Shown here: positions 4,344 through 37,161 of the stretch, one piece after another
Numbering within the stretch: the stretch's first letter is position 1
Layout: each line of letters opens with the position of its first letter
From: Terramyces sp. JEL0728
Lineage: Eukaryota > Chytridiomycota > Chytridiomycetes > Rhizophydiales > Terramycetaceae
Assembly (NCBI GenBank): GCA_027603945.1
Contig: JADIIU010000017.1
Span: 62,001 to 126,000 of the forward strand
Length of the DNA: 64,000 nt
Reading direction: 5' to 3'
Position numbers and translations under genes: made by a program
The notes under the pieces: generated by a model
The model's input: only the letters and a program-made list of their open reading frames with translations
Told to the model about the DNA's origin: nothing
Database searches by the model: none

Positions 4344-7160
4344 ATGTCAAATATATTTGTTTTTACGTCAAAAGGGAGTGTATTGATAAAATATGAACCG
4401 GAATGTACAATCGCATGGTTACTGGAAAGCTGCACAGAGCGACTTACAACCAGAGGACTTACAGAACCGCTGACAACTGTGAAGACGGACGATGGACGGA
4501 CAGTTGATCATGAAGACATGATAGAAAAGATATCGCAGGAGCACCCAGTAATCGTTTCTAATCTAGGCGCTCTTACTATTGACTAATTCAGAACTTTCAA
4601 ATTTACCAGTAGTTGCAAAAACATTCTTTTTGCCCAAAGTATTAAAGCAGATGGAAAGCGATGCGCTACAAAGAGCTCAGACAATCGCATCTGGAAAACC
4701 AGTCGGAGAGGATTCACAAGCAGAGCTATCCAAGCTGCGAAGTCAGACACTGAAAAAGTTTTCAACTGGAACTGGATTAACACGGAGGGATGCAGCTAAA
4801 AGGAGCACTCGATTTGGTCCATCTGCAGCCGCCTCTGAAGATACTAAACTTAACCGTTTAAGTACTTTATGGGATAAATTAATGGTTGAAGATGAAGACG
4901 AATCGGTGGATCCTATGCATTCGGAGGAGTCAATCAAAGGATTTTTAGACCGTTCGTCTCGTATGTCATCTAATTCCACAATTAACATCGATGAAGATAC
5001 TAATGAACCCCATAGAAGATCAAAGTCTCATAGTAAGTCTCCGTCAAGAGCAGCTTCGCCTGCAAGAGATAGAACTTCAGTCTTGAAGAGAGACAGAAAC
5101 AGAAACTCAAAGACGCTATCTACTCGTTCGGACGCCTTGGCCAACCAGATTGAACAGATGCTGGATGATGTGAACAAGGCAGAGGTACTTTTTAATTAAT
5201 ATAGAATGAAAACAAAGAAGAGCGAGTAGGAAAAGTGCTTTGTGTTAACTCTAGGAAACCGTCACTCTTACTCAAACAACGACGATCGTTACTCAAACAA
5301 CAACTGTCGTTCAAGAGACAGTAATATTTGCTAATTTGTAGGTTGTGCCAATTGTTCCTAGCGGAGGAAAGAAATTGCCCAAATGGCATCCAGATTATGG
5401 AAAGGAGGAGTCATCAGTCCCAAGTGTGCTAAGTAGCATTCCTCCTCCCCCACCGTAATTGCAGATTAACAATAGTCCACCGCCAGTAATTCCAGTGGCT
5501 CCGTATTCTTTTACTAATGCAGACCGTATATTGACAATTAATAATAGTCCTCCACCACCAGTTGCTGTTCCGCCACCGTACTCTGTTACTAATGTAGACC
5601 GTGAGTAATTTCTAAATATAGACCTCCTCCTCCACCAGGCATGGGTATTCCACCTCCACCACCGTAATTAGTTACTAATTATAGACCACCGTACTTATTA
5701 TTAACAGTAGTCCTCCAGGAATGGGCGGACCACCTCCACCGTAAATAGTTACTAATTATAGACCACCGTACTTATTATTAACAATAGTCCTCCAGGAATG
5801 GGCGGACCACCTCCACCGTATGCAAATACTAACTCTAGACCGTACTTGAAAGACTAACGTAGACCGTAAGTATTGTTGACAATAGACCTCCAGGAATGGG
5901 CGGACCCCCAGTTCAAAAATCTGGTGGAGATATGCAATCAGAGTTGATGAATGCTCTCAAAGATCCTAACCTTAGAAACAGATTGAAAAAGTCCAAACCA
6001 AAGGCAGTGGTTGATCCAGATGCTGAAAAGAAGGCAAAGGAGGCTGAAGATGCCAAATTGACCCCTGAAGAAAGAGCTGCAAGGGAGCAAAAAGAAAAGG
6101 AATTGGCTGCCGAACGTGAAAGACAACGCGAAATTATCCAAAGACAAGAATTGATTACTGAAATGCTGGGCTATATGGAAACCCCAAATGGTTCTATTGA
6201 AGATTTGCTCGATAACAGTCAGAAATCTACCAAGTTTGAACGTGGTTTCATCTACTTGATGGTTCGAAGAAATTGGGTACAAGCTTGCAGAGTTAAGCAG
6301 CCTCCGCCAACGGACGTGCCTAAACCACAAGGTAGCAATATTTTGATATTTTAGGCAAGGAAAAGTATGTCCCATGTCAAGTTTATACCGGTATTGAAAT
6401 CACTAGTGCTATTAATTTGGAAGACAAAACTCCTGAAGAACTAGCCGAATTATTCCCAAATGAAGACCAAAAAATTTACACCGCACACATGTACCGATTT
6501 GACAACTACTACAAGAAGCACACTTTAGACGAAATCGCACTGTATAGAGGCAGAAATTTCCCAAAGCCTGCAGAGCCTTTCGAATTGCCAGAGCCGGTTA
6601 AAACCAACACTTTGGAAAGCTTGAACAGATGGGAAGCTTGGTATCAAAAGAAGCTTGAACATTCGCAAACTGATTCGTGCCAATTTGATTTGATTTACAA
6701 CAAGTTATTGACGAACGATTTGACACTTACGGCTGTGTTCGCTCAATTACAAGGAACTATATCTGAAATCAAAGAAATGAATGAAACAGTTTCCAGCACA
6801 TTTGCAGACATACCAATCAAGGAGCTCGGAGAATTAGTAATGTCGATTCCAGACAGAATCAAGGCAGTTGCTAAACAATTGTACCACAAGAACGGGATTA
6901 TTATTAAAGACACTGATCTTAAACTCACGCCGGCTTTCTTGCAATCGTACAATGATCCAAACGCTACCCCAGAGCTTGCTGAGAAAGAAAAGAGTGCTCC
7001 ACAGACACTCGAACTACCACCAAGAAACAAGCGCGAATCCTTTGTCAACTTTGCTGGTGTGCCAGTCGAACAAGTCGTTCCATTAATCAAATCCCTCAAC
7101 AATAGAAGAAAGATGAATCTCGAAGAGGACAAGGTGTCTAGAAGATATACGCTGTGGTAA
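4344..7160 (+). CDS. Proline-rich WH2-like protein, 18 exons with 3- and 6-nt micro-exons
   Basis: Exons 4344..4547, 4567..5184, 5205..5234, 5255..5320, 5342..5454, 5476..5502, 5523..5525, 5548..5577, 5598..5600, 5622..5663, 5685..5690, 5711..5740, 5762..5767, 5788..5817, 5839..5841, 5863..5865, 5886..6331, 6355..7160; 821 residues, one frame throughout. The N-terminus is a small beta-rich domain that could be ubiquitin- or RA-like. A Ser-rich linker follows, then a polyproline tract with repeated PGMGGPPPP units as in FH1 or WASP-type profilin ligands. Next comes a WH2-like segment (MQSELMNALKDPNLRNRLKK) and a helical region of about 370 residues I do not recognise. It is not a formin, as no FH2 domain is seen. 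An actin-assembly role is inferred. The start is uncertain; 4344 is the first in-frame ATG. Confidence 0.7.
5455..5885 (+). repeat. Array of 12 tiny introns separated by 3-42 nt exons in the polyproline tract
   Basis: Introns at 5455-5475, 5503-5522, 5526-5547, 5578-5597, 5601-5621, 5664-5684, 5691-5710, 5741-5761, 5768-5787, 5818-5838, 5842-5862 and 5866-5885. All are 20-22 nt, start GTA or GTG, have a TAA-type branch site and end AG. All lie in phase 2 after CC of a proline codon. The exons between them are 27, 3, 30, 3, 42, 6, 30, 6, 30, 3 and 3 nt. Segments 5664-5740 and 5741-5817 form a 77-bp tandem duplication differing at two positions, so two introns were copied together with coding DNA. 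Confidence 0.75.
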
Positions 7161-14325: not shown

Positions 14326-14461
14326 TAAATTTAAAAATGGAAAAATCTTTAGTTATGGCATAACAAGATATCTTTTGGTTGATTTCGCCCGTAATCTCGG
14401 AGAAATGCATTGTTTTTCCCCTTCCACACCATAAATAGTTTGGTTTTCAAAAACAAACAAA

Positions 14462-16179
14462 ATGGACGCATCCTTCATCGTCGCCAATTCCCTTGCCAAC
14501 AACCGCATTGTAGTGTTCGGTAAATCTACCTGCCCATACACTCTAAAAGCCAGAGAATTACTAGAGAAATACACGACTTTTGAACTCTTCTTTGTTGATA
14601 AACTGGAATTAGGCTCGGAAATCCACAAGCATTTGGTTAAAAAGACTCGGCAAAAGACCGTCCCTTATGTGTTTATTGACCAAGACTTTGTTGGCGGATC
14701 TTCAGATTTGGTTACATTCCATGAACAAGGAAAGTTGGAAGGATTCAAAGAAAAACGATCTGTGTCAAAAATAGTCTCCGAAGCAATTTCAAAGCACAAC
14801 ATTGTTGTATTTGGGAAAACTACTTGTCCATACACTGCACGCGCTCGGCTTTTATTGGAAAAGAAGAATATTGACTATGGTGTGTTTCTTGTTGATGAGT
14901 TGAACAACGGCCAGGAAATACTGAATGAACTACAAATTCTTACTGGCCAAACTAGTGTTCCTTCCATCTTTATCGGTGGTAAACATATTGGTGGCTCTTC
15001 GGATCTGGTTGAACTGGATGAACAAGGCAGGTTGAATCAATGGGCTAAACCTGATCCAGCTCATAAAAAAGTAGATGCATTGGTAAGCGAACATCGTGTA
15101 GTTGTATTCGGCAAGTCTACTTGTCCATACACCAAGAAAGCAAAGGAATTACTTGAGCAAAAGCGTATTTGGTTACTGATTTAGAAATTGCTTTTGAAAC
15201 CGCTGATTTGGATTTACTTGAAGATGGGAGCGAAATCCAAGAGTATTTGGAACTCAAGACTGGACAAAAATCAGTTCCGAATATATTCATTCATGGCACC
15301 TCTGTTGGCGGAAGCAGTGATTTGATTGCACTGAACGAAAAAGGTGGATTAGATGGATTGAAAGAGCCAGAATTGGTTTTGTATGATCATTTGGTTGCTT
15401 ATTTCCCAGCTAGAGCTCGTTTAGCCATGCTTGAAAAGGGATACAAGTTCAAACACATCCTTGTTGATATTTTCAACGGAGAGTCTTTGAAACCAGAATT
15501 CTTGAAATTGAACCCAAAAGCTACTTTGCCAGTGCTTGTACACGGCGATAAGATCATTCCTAGTGTAGGTTCTCCTTAACAATAGTCTTATGAAATCGTT
15601 GAATATTTGGATAGTTTGGATGGAAAGCCGCTCGGTGGTGGTGTTTCTTCAATCAAGGACTTTGTCGAAGACATTGCTTGTTGGGACGGAAATACCTACA
15701 TGGCATACTACACCCCACAAGCCGCTAAAGGGGTCTTTGCCAGTCTAAACAATTTCAAAACAAAGTTTTGCGAAGCAAGGGCAAAAGAAAATCCAGAGTT
15801 GGCAACCTTGTATTCGGAAAAGATTGCACAGTTACAACATTCACCAAGTGAAGAGGAGGCTTTAGAATGTGTTGCAGATGCCGGCAAGTATTTGGATGCT
15901 GTTGAACAAAAAGTGTCAAATACCGAATATATCAATGGTGGTGAATATACTATCGCGGATTTGCTTGTTACTTCTATGCTTGTCCGCATTGCTGCTTCTG
16001 GCCAACTTGAAAAGATGTTGGCAGATAGACCTTCATTGAGTAGCTGGTACTCTAGAATGCAAAAGCGACCAAGCTATGACAAGTGCTTCAGGAGCCATTT
16101 GACCCAGAAAGCTCCTGGGTTGTTGCTACTGCCAGTTGTTGGTCCTGCTTTGATGTGCAAATTCCTTGGAAGATGTTAA
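14462..16179 (+). CDS. Triple glutaredoxin - glutathione S-transferase fusion
   Basis: Exons 14462..15164, 15185..15564, 15586..16179; 558 residues. Three consecutive glutaredoxin domains each have a CPYT dithiol active site (cysteines near residues 24, 121 and 221), a TVP/SVP loop and a GGSSDL glutathione-binding motif. A complete GST-like part follows: a thioredoxin-fold half (YFPARARLAMLEKGYKFKHI... LPVLVHGDKIIPSS) and an alpha-helical half. The C-terminus ends in a hydrophobic stretch, LLLLPVVGPALMCKFLGRC, that may anchor it to membrane. The 20- and 21-nt introns are essential: the first restores the third glutaredoxin, the second joins the GST halves. It would reduce protein disulfides or glutathione mixed disulfides. 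The fusion order is unusual. Confidence 0.88.
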
Positions 16180-18427: not shown

Positions 18428-20982
18428 TTAGCTGCTTGCTTTTAACGGCAGATCTGGGTGAAACTGTTCAAAAACCTTCAAGATTCCGAATACAGAAGTA
18501 TGATCGCTTATCATGGTTCTAGAAATGATAATTTCTTGGAATTCGTCTTTGCTGGCCCAACGGGGGGTATACGCATATTTGTAATCTGAAGCAATATGCG
18601 TTACTTCAACTACACGCTCTTTGATTGCCGCAGTGAACGCTTGAAGGGTTCTTTTGCCTCTACGGCGCCTTCGTTCGCCATCTGATGGAGTGTCTAAAAT
18701 AGCAGGTCTAGTGGAATGATCTCGCAGTTTTTCTAAATACAAAATACGGCCAGGAATAAACATTGGTGTTCCTGGAACAGTTATGGAAGGCACAATAAAG
18801 TGTTGATCATTTTCAGAGCGCCATTTCTTTGGAATCGAAAGTGTGTGCGCTCTGATCTTTTCAATTTCGGATTCGTCAATGTTGGTATCTTTGTTGTCTG
18901 GAATATTTCCGTTCCTCGTTCTTTGAAGTAAAGTCTTTCTTTTTTCAGAATGGAAATATCTATTTGCAATCGCAGAACCAAATATCTTGTATTTTGGCAA
19001 ATCGCAGTTGTCGAGTAAGCGAACTACATCCGCTTTCAAGATATCCATGGTATAGTGGGTAGTACGAGAGACCGAATCATCTCCAGCAACAACAGATATA
19101 CAGAAATCATCAAAGAGCGATGTTGTCAACTCATTAGCCACGCCTCCAGGCATCGAATATCCATAGCATCTAGTTCTAAAGTATCCTCTTTTGCGAAGAA
19201 AGTATGCAACTAGAGCGCCAACAGCCTGATATTAAGAATAACCTACCGCTCCTAATGAATGTCCACAAACAACAATATGGTAATTGTGTATTTTTGATTC
19301 CCTGTTGCCAACAATGTTTTCCAAAACTTGGTTGGCGATCATATCGTCTACAATGTTCTTGGCGGTCAAATAGAATCCAGAATGAACAGTGTACAAATCT
19401 GCATTTGGCAAATCGGTATCCAAAATAATTTGATCGAGTTTCAAATCAACAAGAATATCTGAAGCCGAGTATGTCCCTCGTATAGCAATGACTATAGAAT
19501 TCCAATCGTGATCTAATGAAACCATGTAAGGAGATTTGAACAAGTCGTTCAGTGGAGAGTAATGAACCAACATATCCAGCTTGCGGGTAATTTCATTGTC
19601 TAGTTGAACATAGGCCATATTGGCATAGTGGGAAAAGTGAATTACGTCCAAGATGTCGTGCTGAGTTAGTTGATAATTTTCCTTCTTTGTTGCAAATGCA
19701 TAAGAGCCAAAGCTCCAATCTTGAGACAATCGCTTTTTTCTTTCTTGCATTTCAATCAAATTTGGATCTTTTGGCAGATTTACTGATCTTGATCGTTCCA
19801 AGAATTTCTTTTTGTTGAATTCCGGCTTGAAAAAATTGATTGCGTTTCTGAATTTGCTGCTTCCAAAGGTATCACTGACGGGTCTTTTTGATTTTATACT
19901 TTCTGCAATTGTGGTTCTGCTTCCGGATGGTTCATCAAATGAAAATGTTCCAAGAGTAGACTCACTACCCTTTGAATGTTGTAATCTAGAAAGCGAATGT
20001 GGTTTTTCATGTTCATTCATGACAAGGGAATCCAAACCAGTTTCAACAAAAGTTCCAAATTGCGGAATGTCCAGCTTAATCTTTGGCAACTCTCTAACAG
20101 TATGCTCATTGTCAACGTCTACGGTATGAATGTCTTCTTGGCTGTACCAACTATTCCAGTTCAAGGTAGGATTTATATTTCTGGCTTCGGCGACTTCTCT
20201 GGCTATTTTCTGTTCTCTCTTCAGGAGAATCAACCCTACTGCAATATCTGACGGAGCCCAATCAACGTCTTTAAAGTAATCCGCAAAAACCATAGACACA
20301 TCAGTCAATACCGCTTGGCCATCGCTATTCGACAAGTTTGAAGAAGAGAGGAGCCATTCGAATCTTCTCTTCCACATGAGGATATAATTGTTCCAATCCT
20401 CAGATAATAATTTCTTTGACTTTGAACCATACATCAAAAAACCAACAATCAAAAAGAAGAGAGCACAAGCAACAAATTCCCAGATCGTTACCATCCTAAC
20501 TAGAGAGATATTGAATCTGCCGTCTTGTTCAACACAATAAAAAGATGAATCAACAGTGACTTTGGCAAATGTTACTGAAATTCCGTAAATCTGCAGCATA
20601 AGGTCAAATATCAACAACGCTGTCTCCGCATGTCCCCATTTACTATATTAGCTGATCCGTACCTCATGTTTCTTCTAGGTCCTGGATTGCTCACTGTCCC
20701 ACTCATACTAATTTTCATATTTATCGCCTCCAATACAATAGCAATTAATCCCAATACCATATTTGCAGTTACATACAGCCCAACGGTATTATACAAATTA
20801 CAATGATCTGAATATACAACTACGAAAGCAAGAATTAGGATTGGCAGCCTGAATTAGTGATAAATACCAAACTAGACGGAAAATCAGCATGATGCTAACA
20901 CTGACATACAAATCGTCTGGTGCGAGATCCAGTCTTCTATTGCAGAACACATACCGTCCCTTTCATTAGCGTAATTTACCAT
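18428..20982 (-). CDS. Diacylglycerol lipase-like enzyme, paralogue 1
   Basis: Complement of exons 18428..19225, 19247..20642, 20663..20848, 20868..20959, 20980..20982; 824 residues. It is built like sn-1 diacylglycerol lipases: N-terminal FCNRRLDLAPDDL segment, four transmembrane helices with the conserved SGTVSNPGPRR loop, then an alpha/beta-hydrolase domain with the nucleophile elbow GHSLGA, a GDD Asp region and a late His in MISDHTS. A long Ser-rich insert and an unusual basic RRRRRGKRT loop occur. Exon 1 is the start codon alone. Introns are 20, 19, 20 and 21 nt; the last cuts right after GHSLGA. The start is confirmed by the same structure in the paralogue at 31565. Confidence 0.9.
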
Positions 20983-31564: not shown

Positions 31565-33865
31565 ATGGTACATTCTGCTCACCTTAGCCTCGATATCTCT
31601 TTTGCTATAGAAGGATAGAGCTATCTCCAGATGACCTATATTTCCCGGCATCGTTTGTCGTATTGTTCAGATGTGTATCGTAAAATCAAATAATACTAGA
31701 ATACCAATATTATCGATCGCGCTTTACCTGGCACTAAAGGATCACTGCGATTTATTAAAAACGATCGGGTTGTACCTCGCAAGCTACTTGATTCTATCAG
31801 CCGTACTCTTATTGTCAGAATTATCCTGTGTTGTATGTTCAATGTCGGGTACTGTGTGTAATCCTGGCCCAAGAAGAAAATTGATGGGACCGATTGGACA
31901 TATTGAAGCGATATTAATGTTGCTGGAGCATCTCCTTCAAATTTACGGAATTTATGTAGCATTTTTTCAAAACGGTGCATACAGCAATAGTTTAGCATGC
32001 ATCCCATTCAATCTCAATCTGGTAAAGATGGTTATCATCATGGCATCCGTCTCTTCGTCCTTTTTTATATTTCTAGTATCGTTTTTCCTGTACAATTCAA
32101 GATCAAAGAAACGCGTCAGCACCAATTTTGGTAAATACATGAAACTTTGGAAAAGAAGGATAGAATGGCTCTGCTCGCCTGTCCGTAATTCTTCAGACAG
32201 CGAAACTGTCATTGCAGACGTTGCTTCTGTACTTGCGGACTATTACAAAGATATAGACTGGAGTTTGACTGATCTGGCTGTAGGGTTGATTCTCTTGAAA
32301 AGAGAGCAGAAACTTTATTCGTTATTGAAAGGAAGGTTTCAAAGCGAGGAAAGGTTAGCACAGAGCGCGAGCTTGGATACGCTATCTAATACTGATGGGC
32401 AATGTTTAATTAATGATCCAGTAGAAGAATCCAATGAAAATGGCGACTTGGCGGTAGTAGCAGAGATAAAAAGAAGCCAGAGTAAGGGATCCAACTCCTC
32501 ATTCAAATCTCAAAAAGGTGGCCGACGGTTCACTGATACCACTACATCCATCGCAAAAGGCAATAAATTTAGGTCCTTCACATCGATAGAGTCTAACGAA
32601 CCACTGAAAACCAAAGGCGGCCTGACAGACTGGAGTTTCTCTTGTTATTCATTTGCTTTATCCATGGAAAAGACAGATTTAAAACAGCCTGATATTATAG
32701 ACATCCTACATTTTTCGCACTATGCAAATATGGCGTATATCCAACTTGATAATGAGATTACTGGAAAATTAGATATGCTTATTCATTTTTCCATCAGCAA
32801 CGACCTGTTCAGATCTCCATATATGATTTCATTAGACCACGACTGGAGCTCGATCGTAATTGCAATTAGAGGGACTTATAGTGCCGCAGATATTCTTGTA
32901 GATTTGCAATTTGATCCGGTAATCCTGGATGAGGATTTGGACAATGCTGAAAAATACCTGGTACATTCTGGATTCAAGAAAACTGCGCTGAATATAGTTA
33001 AGGAAATCTGCGATAATCAACTACTGGATAAAATCATCAAAAATGATCATCAAAAAGAATCGCAATACCAGATCGTGGTTTGTGGACATTCTCTTGGCGC
33101 TGTAATCATACTTTAAAATAGGGCGTAGCATCTTTGGTCGCATATTTTTTGAGAAAAAGAGGTTACAATCAAAGTAGATGCTATGGCTATTCAATGCCTG
33201 GAAGTGTAGCGAATGAACATGCTTCTAGTATCTTTAGCAGCTTTTGCATCTCAATAGTCTGTGGGGACGATATAGTGGCCAGGACAACTCACGAAACTAT
33301 GGAGAGGTTAAAAAGTGATATCCAAAGACTATTAAGCAACTGTAATCTTCCGAAATACAAAATATTTGGTTCGGCAGTGGTAAACAGATTCAGAAATACC
33401 GAAAGTCGAAAGACTTTACTGCAAAGAACGCAGAATGGAAATATTCCAGACAGTAACCACAGTATGCTCCAAGAAAGTGAAGTTGCCTATTTGAAAAAGG
33501 CGCTAAAGGAAAAGAAATCCAGTAAACTCCCAATGTATTTGCCAGGGAGGATATTGTACATTGAAAAAGTGAGAGACAAGGAAAAGATTATTGAAAAGAT
33601 GGCGGAAGGTGGTTTGAACAAAAGACCCAAAAGGGGGACTGCTACACTGCAAGCATTCACCACGGCAATCAAAGAAAAGGTGACAGATACTATCCATCGC
33701 CCAGTGGATGAAAAATACCTCTATAAACCAAGGTGGGCAAAAAAAGAGGAATTCAATGAAATGCTAATATCCAGAACAATGCTTGGAGATCATGTTGCTG
33801 TTTTTGGGATATTGAAATACTTTGAAAATGCGCACCCGGAATCAATCCTCTCAGTTAAAAGCTGA
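31565..33865 (+). CDS. Diacylglycerol lipase-like enzyme, paralogue 2
   Basis: Exons 31565..31567, 31588..31679, 31700..33101, 33122..33865; 746 residues. It is a close paralogue of the lipase at 18428-20982: YLFCYRRIELSPDDL start, membrane helices with SGTVCNPGPRR, the ILHFSHYANMAYIQLDNEIT region, GHSLGA nucleophile elbow, GDD region and LGDHVAV histidine. The first exon is again only the start codon, the second exon is again exactly 92 nt, and the intron after GHSLGA is conserved; the intron after the first membrane pair of paralogue 1 is absent here. Introns are all 20 nt. The middle Ser-rich insert is shorter. Confidence 0.9.
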
Positions 33866-34938: not shown

Positions 34939-35886
34939 CTATTCCATCATTGCTCCATTATTTGCCAACTTGTCGGCCATTTCATTTCCATAAATCCCTT
35001 TATGCGCTTCTACGTATTCAATTTTAACGTCGTTTCGAGCAGAAAATAGCAAATCCAATTTCATCCACAAATCTTTGTTTGAAACGGGTTGTCCATTGCT
35101 AGTTTTCCAATCCCTTCTTTTCCAATTTTGAATCCAATTCTTTATGCCATTGATTGTGTACTGCGAATCAGAGTAAATTTTGACATTTGGTGTATCCTTG
35201 AATATCTCGAGGGCTCTTATAATCGCAAATATTTCTGCTCGGTTGTTCGTTGGGCCGTCCAAATACCTTTCGGATACATTTCTTGGATCTCCATCAGCAA
35301 CAAATATTCCAATTCCAGCTCTAGCACCAGCCTTACCATTCCCTCTGCAACTTCCATCGGTGTATACTTTTACGGATGCATCTATTGGAGTGCTGGATGC
35401 AAGCGTATCAACAGGGGTGTTATCAGGATTCTGCAGCTGCACAGGAAGCATTATACTGTGGGAGATTGATCCCTCTTTTGCCAACTCGAAAGCTTTCCTG
35501 AAGCCAATCAAGGTAGAGTCTCCCGAGTACTGCAGAACGACTCCGGTTCTGCTTGAATATAGACAATCAAAAGCCATCCACAGTTCAACATTTGCAATTG
35601 GTTGGTTCTTGGCATTCCTCCAATTGTTATGTTTCCAGCCACTAACCCAGGTATTAATTCCATCAATCACATACTTTGAATTGCAATATATAGTTACGCT
35701 ACGTGACTGTAAGGTCCGCTTTAGCGCTTCAATTGCAGCAAACAAGATCGCTTGGTTATTGGTCACTCCATCCAAAAACCCTGCAACGTTTCTTGAATCT
35801 CCGTCTCCAAAGTAAATTCCGATTCCTGCTCTTGCCCTTCCATTCCCCCGAAATGTCGTGCTTAAAAAGATTTCTGTCAACCTCAT
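34939..35886 (-). CDS. Tandem RNase H protein: degenerate first domain, intact second domain
   Basis: Single exon, 315 residues with two RNase H domains. The C-terminal one (about 170-315) has all catalytic residues: VYTDGSCRGNG, NNRAEIFAII, IYSDSQYTING and EAHKGIYGNEMADKLA, as in RNase H1. The N-terminal copy (about 1-140) is clearly homologous (FRGNGRARAGIGIYFGDGDS, NNQAILFAAI, IYCNSKYVIDGINTWVSGWK) but its acidic residues are replaced: Asp to Ser, Glu to Ile, Asp to Asn, Asp to Phe. It is a pseudo-nuclease that may bind hybrid or regulate its partner. No classical hybrid-binding domain is present. Confidence 0.88.
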   Translation of the reverse strand: MRLTEIFLSTTFRGNGRARAGIGIYFGDGDSRNVAGFLDGVTNNQAILFAAIEALKRTLQSRSVTIYCNSKYVIDGINTWVSGWKHNNWRNAKNQPIANVELWMAFDCLYSSRTGVVLQYSGDSTLIGFRKAFELAKEGSISHSIMLPVQLQNPDNTPVDTLASSTPIDASVKVYTDGSCRGNGKAGARAGIGIFVADGDPRNVSERYLDGPTNNRAEIFAIIRALEIFKDTPNVKIYSDSQYTINGIKNWIQNWKRRDWKTSNGQPVSNKDLWMKLDLLFSARNDVKIEYVEAHKGIYGNEMADKLANNGAMME

Positions 35887-35929
35887 AACAAAATGAAAAA
35901 ACGCATCGATAATTATTATTAGGAAATTC

Positions 35930-37161
35930 CTAAAGTAGAGTATTTATTAGATAGTAACCAGCAAGTGCAACTCCCAAAACTACCAGAGTGATAACACGAA
36001 CTTGATTAATGTAAAAGAATCTCGACCATCTTTGCGAGGTAACTTGAGCCAAGTTGCAGCGCAGAACTGGTCTCGCCATATCATCAGTGGCGCGCTCCAG
36101 ATGATATAACGCAACTACTGGATCATGGTCGCTCCAGCTGTATTCTTCTATGCGAATGTAATGTAGGGGGGAGATGGTGTGATGGCCAGAATTAAAGTGT
36201 AATATCCTATCACAATAGGCTGGTAATCTTGTGGTTGAATATGCTCTTGAACCCTCCAGTTTCTTTTCCATTTTAAGTTTGTATGACGGTGTGAAACCTA
36301 TCATGGCTTCTTTGAATTGGGCTAGGGTTCCTTGTTGAACAGATCTGAGATAGTTTAATTCGTCCAAAGCGTTTAATTCCTCCACGTTATTCTTTTGAAT
36401 AAGTTCCAGAACTTTAGATCTCTTTGGTAAAGAAGCGTCATTCCCGATAACACCGTGTGCCCACTTTTCCTTTGATCCTTTAAATCTAAAGTTCAAATCA
36501 CCAAAGAACCAAATTACTTCATGGTTTTGGGGCAGAGTCACATACGGTATATTCCTAAACGGCTTCATCACCAAGCACGATAGGATATGGTCTGCCTCCT
36601 CCTGTCTCCAAATACAGTTGGCTTCGCCTGCATGTGGATGGAGGTGGGAGCTAATAAAGCAAAACGAGCTGCTCTGCTCTGGATATTTTTCTAGCTCGCA
36701 TTCAAATGATATCGCTATTGCACCTTTGTTTACATATACTCCTCCTAGTCCTGTACCGATTGTTCCCGTCGCCAGTTTGTTTACCAACGTTCCTGCTGTT
36801 AACTGAGAATACCTTGTTTGATGAACACCAGCATACCTATTCCTGCTGTTTTCCCTGCATATAATGGACAGTATTTTGCACCATGGCCGTGGATTTTAAA
36901 CAGTGCACTTTCTACACGATTTATCCAAGGTTCTAAGCCTGGTATGTGCGTAGCTCCCTCTCTGGTAGGACTCCAAAACGACTGATAAACCCCAATACGG
37001 TGGAGATGAGTTTGAGGCAGCAATTCCTGAAATCCAAGACAGATAATGTCGGGTGAAGGTGAGAGGGATCTTTCAAGCCAGTGAGAGATATCTTGCAGCT
37101 GTCCGTCTTTTAGCTCGTTTGTTGCCACGTTCCAAGTGCCTACTTGGACTGTTATTTTCAT
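35930..37161 (-). CDS. Inositol polyphosphate 5-phosphatase with C-terminal membrane anchor
   Basis: Complement of exons 35930..36792 and 36813..37161; 403 residues. The catalytic domain starts almost at residue 1 (VGTWNVA) and has the family motifs: GFQELLPQ, SHLHPHAGE, WFFGDLNFRF, PAYCDRILHF and SWSDHDPVVA. It would hydrolyse the 5-phosphate of PtdIns(4,5)P2 or related lipids. A hydrophobic helix at the end (RVITLVVLGVALAGYYLINT) makes it tail-anchored, so it acts on the cytosolic face of a membrane. The single 20-nt intron is needed to restore the frame. Confidence 0.92.

Follow-up and report, generated by a model that had tools for sequence, protein, structure and literature searches.

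Host Gene and Anatomy of the Polyproline Array

A stretch of 64,000 nucleotides (below, the window) from Terramyces sp. JEL0728, a chytrid of the order Rhizophydiales with a genome of 15.0 Mb in 231 contigs, was analyzed with a focus on the polyproline-encoding tract of one of its genes, HDV01_002232. In this tract, 12 GT-AG introns (five of 20 nt, six of 21 nt, and one of 22 nt) tile positions 5455–5885. All 12 are in phase 2, each donor following CC, and the 11 internal exons measure, in order, 27, 3, 30, 3, 42, 6, 30, 6, 30, 3, and 3 nt. Each of these lengths is a multiple of 3, six exons do not exceed 6 nt, and ACC is the sequence of all four 3-nt exons. Coordinates and lengths confirmed a first-pass annotation of this DNA, which had placed 12 phase-2 introns of 20–22 nt after CC within 431 bp, separated by exons of 3, 6, 27, 30, and 42 nt, four of them a single ACC. 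Its remark that any combination of exons stays in frame follows at once from the phase-2 position of all introns. On the evidence presented below, it is quite probable that the tract is coding polyproline composed of tiny symmetric phase-2 exons, from which spliceosomal introns of approximately 20 nt are constitutively spliced.

When fully spliced, the host gene reads from an ATG at position 4344 to a stop codon at 7158–7160 and encodes 821 residues, with 17 introns of 19–23 nt. Without splicing, the array region is crossed by no reading frame. The predicted protein comprises an N-terminal region, the polyproline tract, a basic LRNRLKK motif, and a conserved C-terminal region. Over residues 430–821 (the C-terminal half) it is 100% identical to GenBank protein P0001, and homologs occur in Boothiomyces (92–93% identity) and in two other chytrids (Lobulomyces and Podochytrium, 37–40%). 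Pfam yielded no family above cut-off for this protein and no FH2 domain, and the gene was not classed as a formin. Features of the gene are as follows (ORF, open reading frame); the 30-nt exon between the introns at 5185..5204 and 5235..5254 is present in P0001.

4344..7160, + strand: host gene HDV01_002232 (spliced ORF, GenBank protein P0001, homologs)
4548..4566, + strand: ordinary 19-nt intron, 5′ of the array (spliced ORF, intron scoring; also spliced out in P0001)
5185..5204, + strand: ordinary 20-nt intron (spliced ORF, intron scoring; spliced out in P0001)
5235..5254, + strand: ordinary 20-nt intron with GTG donor (spliced ORF, intron scoring)
5321..5341, + strand: ordinary 21-nt intron (spliced ORF, intron scoring; spliced out in P0001)
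5455..5475, + strand: array intron 1, 21 nt (sequence, scoring, parser)
5503..5522, + strand: array intron 2, 20 nt (sequence, scoring, parser; kept as peptide in P0001)
5523..5525, + strand: 3-nt exon ACC (sequence)
5526..5547, + strand: array intron 3, 22 nt (sequence, scoring, parser; kept in P0001)
5578..5597, + strand: array intron 4, 20 nt (sequence, scoring; the parser has an alternative)
5598..5600, + strand: 3-nt exon ACC (sequence; left out in P0001)
5601..5621, + strand: array intron 5, 21 nt; its donor is GTGAGT, with an alternative at 5605 (sequence, scoring, parser)
5652..5820, + strand: 77-bp tandem duplication, 2.2 copies, spanning introns 6–7 and 8–9 with their exons (Tandem Repeats Finder)
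5664..5684, + strand: array intron 6, 21 nt (sequence, scoring, parser; spliced out in P0001)
5685..5690, + strand: 6-nt exon ACCACC (sequence; present in P0001)
5691..5710, + strand: array intron 7, 20 nt (sequence, scoring, parser; spliced out in P0001)
5741..5761, + strand: array intron 8, 21 nt, near-copy of intron 6 (sequence; spliced out in P0001)
5762..5767, + strand: 6-nt exon ACCACC (sequence; present in P0001)
5768..5787, + strand: array intron 9, 20 nt, near-copy of intron 7 (sequence; spliced out in P0001)
5818..5838, + strand: array intron 10, 21 nt; retention would be in frame, with no stop, and add YANTNSR (sequence, parser)
5839..5841, + strand: 3-nt exon ACC (sequence)
5842..5862, + strand: array intron 11, 21 nt (sequence, scoring, parser)
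5863..5865, + strand: 3-nt exon ACC (sequence; left out in P0001)
5866..5885, + strand: array intron 12, 20 nt (sequence, scoring, parser)
6332..6354, + strand: ordinary 23-nt intron, 3′ of the array (spliced ORF, intron scoring; spliced out in P0001)

Intron Length in the Terramyces Genome

Intron lengths were sampled over 264 kb, consisting of the window and 20 stretches of 10 kb (1.8% of the genome, taken at fixed rather than random coordinates). In a hidden Markov model (HMM) without splice-site models, 89 of 160 GT-AG introns were 19–23 nt long, vs. 11 of 154 and 12 of 140 when two decoy dinucleotide pairs were used in the same HMM. After training, the HMM called 174 introns, of which 145 were 19–23 nt long, 4 were shorter, and 25 were longer. 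In the actin gene, which was read by eye, removal of four introns of 21–22 nt restored the actin sequence. Introns of 19–23 nt are the norm in Terramyces sp. JEL0728, actin included. Longer introns may still exist, since a 40-nt intron in a further proline-rich gene (gene 3, see below) agrees with GenBank protein P0046.

Statistical and Model-Based Analysis of the Array

Within 460 bp, the array region held 11 non-overlapping intron-like units, whereas 0.22 were expected (Poisson p ~1e-15, with a rate estimated over the entire window, including the array). At most two such units were found in 460 bp after dinucleotide shuffling (n = 500), and 2,234 tiles of 460 bp from both strands of the 264-kb sample contained at most three away from the host gene. 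An origin of the array by chance is excluded. Introns at window positions 5400–5900 were left out when splice models were trained. Scored by a position weight matrix for intronic signals only, the array introns fell between the 35th and 96th percentile of genome introns, and all 12 combined GT…AG ends and a length of 19–23 nt with intronic donor and branch/acceptor signals. Their intronic side is ordinary; their exonic donor context departs from that of the genome.

With zero penalty per intron, a splice parser returned exactly the 12 introns of the first-pass annotation. Penalties of 1–3 left 10 of them, introns 4 and 5 being replaced by a retained stretch and a 17-nt intron (5605–5621), and a penalty of 4 left 9. 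At a penalty of 5, seven were recovered (five if introns of up to 75 nt were allowed), with introns 2–3 and 10 read through. Introns 4 and 5 are the weakest spot of the array. No 17-nt GT-AG intron occurred in the length histogram built without splice-site models from the 264-kb sample.

The Same Architecture in Other Proline-Rich Genes

A genome search for CCGTA-N(14-18)-TAGACCGTA gave 33 matches, vs. 2 in a reversed control. These were located in the window gene (2), in a formin gene on contig C106 (20), in a third gene at the start of the same contig (gene 3; 8), in a copy of the latter on C11 (2), and elsewhere (1); the lone match to this pattern on C167 looks like chance. The FH1 array of the formin (C106:24923-25874) contains 22 exons of 3 nt and 32 introns of 20–23 nt in 952 bp; four further introns, located 5′ of the polyproline tract, are not counted here. 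The FH2 match of this gene starts approximately 60 bp beyond the final intron of the array, and the formin provides a more convincing example than the window gene does. Gene 3 (C106:1-2800, minus strand) carries 35 polyproline introns in 1,551 bp and 11 exons of 3 nt. This count includes three in-frame introns that were added by hand after the parser had read through them, and leaves out two introns between the two sub-arrays and one after them. The gene encodes six (F/L)QDQLK-type basic repeats and matched no Pfam family above cut-off. From its appearance it may, as a guess, be SCAR- or Abi-like; a homolog search retrieved just the Terramyces record itself.

Together, the three arrays contain 79 polyproline introns, all in phase 2, vs. 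23 of 149 in the genome sample (p 8e-65 if introns were independent, which duplicates are not). Their 37 exons of 3 nt are all NCC (35 are ACC), and a further 12 exons measure 6 nt. One or two phase-2 introns were also found within proline runs of genes on C64, C140, and C220, for a total of six genes with introns at such positions. Introns after a proline run, searched as CCACCGTA..AGNCC, gave 25 matches vs. 3 in the control, and CCGTA..AGNCCNNCGT gave 8 vs. 2; CCTCCGTA..AGNCC showed no clear excess (5 vs. 3). Nor was a genome-wide excess seen for 3-nt exons of any sequence (TAAYNNTAGNNNGTA, at least 116 matches vs. 135 in the reversed control). ACC matches on C37, C56, C96, and C167 were isolated and look like chance. 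Matches on C6 and C50 are without the usual branch motif.

Apart from the window itself, the C106 formin was the sole match in a DNA search that skips simple repeats. The FH1 region of another formin, on C8, contains none of these introns, and unsplit runs of at least seven CCN codons gave 18 overlapping matches at about ten places in 15 Mb, the longest of approximately 11 codons (C164). Introns in proline runs are thus recurrent, but not obligatory.

The first-pass annotation had described the host protein as WH2-like and probably related to profilin and actin. A basic motif of WH2 type is indeed visible (LRNRLKK/LKNRLKK) and is the sole such sign; Pfam detected no WH2 domain, even at an E value of 10, in P0001, P0002, P0003, P0004, P0046, or a partial model of gene 3. 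The link to actin regulation gained indirect support from the presence of the same architecture in a formin FH1 region, and from an intron within a run of eight prolines (P8) in the C220 gene. The latter looks WASP-like by eye and contains GDLLSQIRQGTQLK, which we take to be the WH2 motif of WASP.

Proposed Inclusion of Single-Codon Exons and Alternative Readings

Splicing of these introns in RNA and constitutive inclusion of the exons between them are inferred from sequence. In the proposed mechanism, splicing would occur by intron definition, each donor pairing with the branch point and AG approximately 20 nt downstream. Each intron would be removed singly and the 3-nt exons kept, so that many exons would consist of one proline codon (A|CC) between introns of about 20 nt. 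The product would contain runs of approximately eight prolines followed by GMGG, the pattern of chytrid formin FH1 regions (profilin sites).

We think that the single-codon exons are constitutively included, and four indirect tests agree. Intron cores in the two other arrays were no more similar to each other (1.29 and 1.30) than random genome introns (1.41), the few near-copies being neighbors or module repeats. In the same two genes all AG|NCC|GT junctions are intact, and no unit without splice sites was seen in the tiling. With diverged cores and intact junctions, the sites are unlikely to be remnants of an unconstrained intron interior. The window array has a core score of 2.94, partly owing to a recent duplication, and being younger bears less on this argument. 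All 37 exons of 3 nt read NCC, as required for proline codons that are split after CC. Of these 37, 35 begin with A, vs. 43 CCA among 98 whole proline codons of longer array exons (p 1.6e-8), as expected if this base doubles as position -3 of the next donor.

With all exons joined, the C106 formin has proline runs of 8, 8, 8, 8, 8, 7, 7, 5, and 5. These were compared with 33 of 41 homologs (P0005-P0037), a set that includes partial sequences and sequences with no run. A run of eight is the mode in the homologs (117 of 258 runs of at least four) and accounts for 54 of 78 runs that precede G[MF][GSM]; the two closest homologs (P0005 and P0006) also end in 5, 5. The fit to homolog runs before G[MF] was -13.8 log units with all exons, -29.7 when 3-nt exons were skipped, and -29.9 when 3- and 6-nt exons were both skipped.

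An alternative to single removal is that adjoining introns leave in pairs as introns of 44–47 nt (or 68 nt), with loss of the 3-nt and perhaps the 6-nt exons; this, too, would preserve the frame. Several observations weigh against the inclusion of every exon. The GenBank models are the sole independent opinions and partly contradict the first-pass annotation: P0001 merges introns 4–5 and 11–12, dropping two of the four 3-nt exons, and has introns 2, 3, and 10 as protein. When penalized, the parser reads through two to seven of the 12 window introns and three introns of gene 3, and at its strictest penalty it joins introns 11–12. Introns of at least 24 nt account for 25 of the 174 calls, 6 of them at 40–50 nt, and gene 3, in which one 40-nt intron matches P0046, was parsed only when introns of 40–48 nt were allowed in its N-terminal part. 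The exonic -1 base is G in 57% and C in 3% of sampled genome introns, but the arrays have C there at 71 of 79 donors, and the window array at 12 of 12; this should weaken pairing with U1. Proline runs of the homologs are those of predicted proteins and are variable. The window gene separates the readings weakly (runs of 8, 6, 9, 9, 8, 8 with all exons vs. 8, 5, 8, 9, 8, 6), and the spread of formin runs is mixed, with a coefficient of variation of 0.17 for all exons, 0.22 without 3-nt exons, and 0.15 without 3- and 6-nt exons. That coefficient was taken over all runs of at least four; it is the homolog comparison that separates the readings.

Joint removal is nevertheless unlikely. It leaves unexplained the intact internal AG, NCC, and GT amid cores of background-level similarity, as well as the NCC sequence of 37 out of 37 exons, and the P8 pattern of the formin is restored by full inclusion only. 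P0001 itself splices introns 6–9 one by one and retains both 6-nt exons. Three of the six calls at 40–50 nt look false, as two score below 0 and a third has a complete 20-nt intron at its end, and the parser, when allowed introns of up to 75 nt, joined no pair at penalties 0–4. We take the odd peptides in P0001, P0002, and P0046 as gene-finder errors. In P0002, the Boothiomyces ortholog, the peptides YEYINTS and YSININSR lie within proline runs and back-translate naturally to GTA..AG introns of 21 and 24 nt, and its tract is probably split too; the gene 3 model P0046 likewise holds intron-like peptides. P0002 ends in a peroxidase domain and is perhaps a gene fusion made by annotation.

Regulated skipping or retention that varies the number of prolines and PGMGG units, the splicing-tunable ruler proposed in the first-pass annotation, is not supported and appears unlikely. 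With phase-2 introns and symmetric exons every exon combination is in frame, and for 10 of the 79 array introns retention would insert approximately seven residues with no stop or frameshift. Retention of the other 69, however, would cause a frameshift or stop. The all-exon runs of the formin match the P8 length common in homologs, the short-intron norm favors pairing of adjacent sites, and introns of the length that exon skipping would need (44–47 nt) are rare in the sample. A constant product is favored by the common P8 and by how seldom longer introns occur, and these findings point to constitutive splicing of adjacent sites. It is very improbable that the tract is a minisatellite or a degraded, functionless gene in which introns appear by chance. 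A 77-bp tandem repeat is present, but chance is excluded by the unit counts, the gene is conserved in Boothiomyces and two other chytrids, and its fully spliced frame is open.

Origin and Persistence of the Arrays

Tandem duplication is visible in the arrays and probably built them. Most array introns are bracketed by CCACC/ACC direct repeats. Among the formin introns, 6/7 and 14/15 are near-copies that lie side by side, and the pair 4–5 recurs as 9–10. Growth probably occurred by local tandem duplication of units of one or more proline codons plus an intron: slippage or unequal exchange between short direct repeats would copy an intron and whole codons, leaving the frame intact. Duplication of whole-codon units fits the phase-2 position of all 79 introns and the integer exon sizes. 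An introner-like mobile origin was rejected, as cores of the two other arrays are, local near-copies excepted, no more alike than random introns.

The gene 3 copies at the end of C11 and the start of C106 overlap by 967 bp with 98% identity (alleles or paralogs). In 526 bp of shared array, their introns differ by one 1-nt insertion and four substitutions, and their exons by one extra proline codon in a longer exon and one substitution; every GT, AG, and 3-nt exon is spared. Unless the intron is removed from the mRNA, a 1-nt change in its length would not be harmless.

We give about an even chance to a protein repeat that grows by one codon plus one intron: in several genes, including a formin FH1, the spliceosome would assemble the polyproline tract codon by codon from tandem units of A|CC plus an intron of about 20 nt, and such units would be kept for exact single-residue steps and for shielding from slippage in CCN repeats. 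The narrower proposal that introns were selected as breaks in CCN repeats, guarding profilin-binding runs from slippage, is compatible with constitutive splicing and is put forward tentatively, as a possibility on the unlikely side. Introns within proline runs of six genes, the scarcity of unsplit CCN runs, and the C11/C106 difference of one exonic proline codon with intron sites kept are in its favor; the unsplit run on C164 and the C8 formin FH1 without such introns speak against it.

Comparison With Known Systems

According to the accessible text of published reports, introns measure 15–16 nt in Stentor, 16–17 nt in Mikrocytos, 18–21 nt in the Bigelowiella nucleomorph, and at least 23 nt in Trichomonas, and the Stentor branch point lies a few nucleotides from the 3′ end of the intron (PMC9505925, PMC10245619, PMC12316389). 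Terramyces shares with these systems very short spliceosomal introns of, as far as those texts go, mostly narrow length range. In contrast to them (packed arrays are not described in the accessible text), it packs 12–35 introns per tract, with 3-nt exons. The introns of schistosome micro-exon genes (MEGs) are ordinary in size and MEG exons are mostly longer than 3 nt. Most of the MEG coding region consists, in the accessible part of the source, of very small symmetrical exons, and the products, some of them secreted, are varied by alternative splicing (PMC4350168). The Terramyces genes resemble MEGs in their tiny symmetric exons, in the tract only and not over the whole gene; unlike in MEGs, exons and introns are both minimal, and a constant product is predicted. 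Plant microexons occur singly, between ordinary introns. They measure 1–15 nt, and those of 1–3 nt exist and are missed by annotation, as stated in the accessible text (PMC8831610). Exons of 3 nt are thus shared with plants, whereas the tandem arrays are not. Fibrillar collagen genes contain repeated 54-bp exons. Here, as in collagen, a repeat protein has probably grown by duplication of symmetric exons with their introns; the Terramyces unit, unlike that of collagen, goes down to a 3-bp exon and an intron of approximately 20 bp. The window gene resembles formin FH1 tracts in its P8GMGG repeats and differs from formins in having no FH2. Dictyostelium formin introns generally lie 5′ of the FH1 region, according to the accessible part of the report (PMC555941).

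No report of tandem single-codon exon arrays or of 20-nt introns in chytrids was found in a literature search that covered subscription papers thinly, and the accessible parts of a Rhizophydium genome paper and a chytrid WASP/SCAR paper contain nothing on such arrays. The parts are known; their combination seems new. If the proposed splicing is correct, 32 introns leave less than 1 kb of formin pre-mRNA, many with 3-nt exons between them, and tiny introns in three or more proline-rich genes push the splicing machinery to its physical limit. Judging from the size of the spliceosome, two of them hardly fit on neighboring units at once, and the arrays would therefore be a natural test of intron definition, of splicing order, and of the smallest exon that a spliceosome can join. 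It would also explain the odd peptides in proline-rich gene models of Terramyces and a related chytrid. Tandem duplication within codon repeats would provide a visible route of intron multiplication.

Other Features of the Window

Rfam and tRNA scans of the 64-kb window were both empty. At 18428–20647 (- strand) and 31635–33865 (+ strand) lie two long, related ORF pairs in opposite orientation, which carry a lipase-like GHSLG motif and have the appearance of a gene duplication. In an ORF at 14435–15184, a glutaredoxin-like CPYT motif occurs three times in tandem, and an ORF at 34939–35943 (- strand) contains, by eye, two tandem RNase H-like halves.

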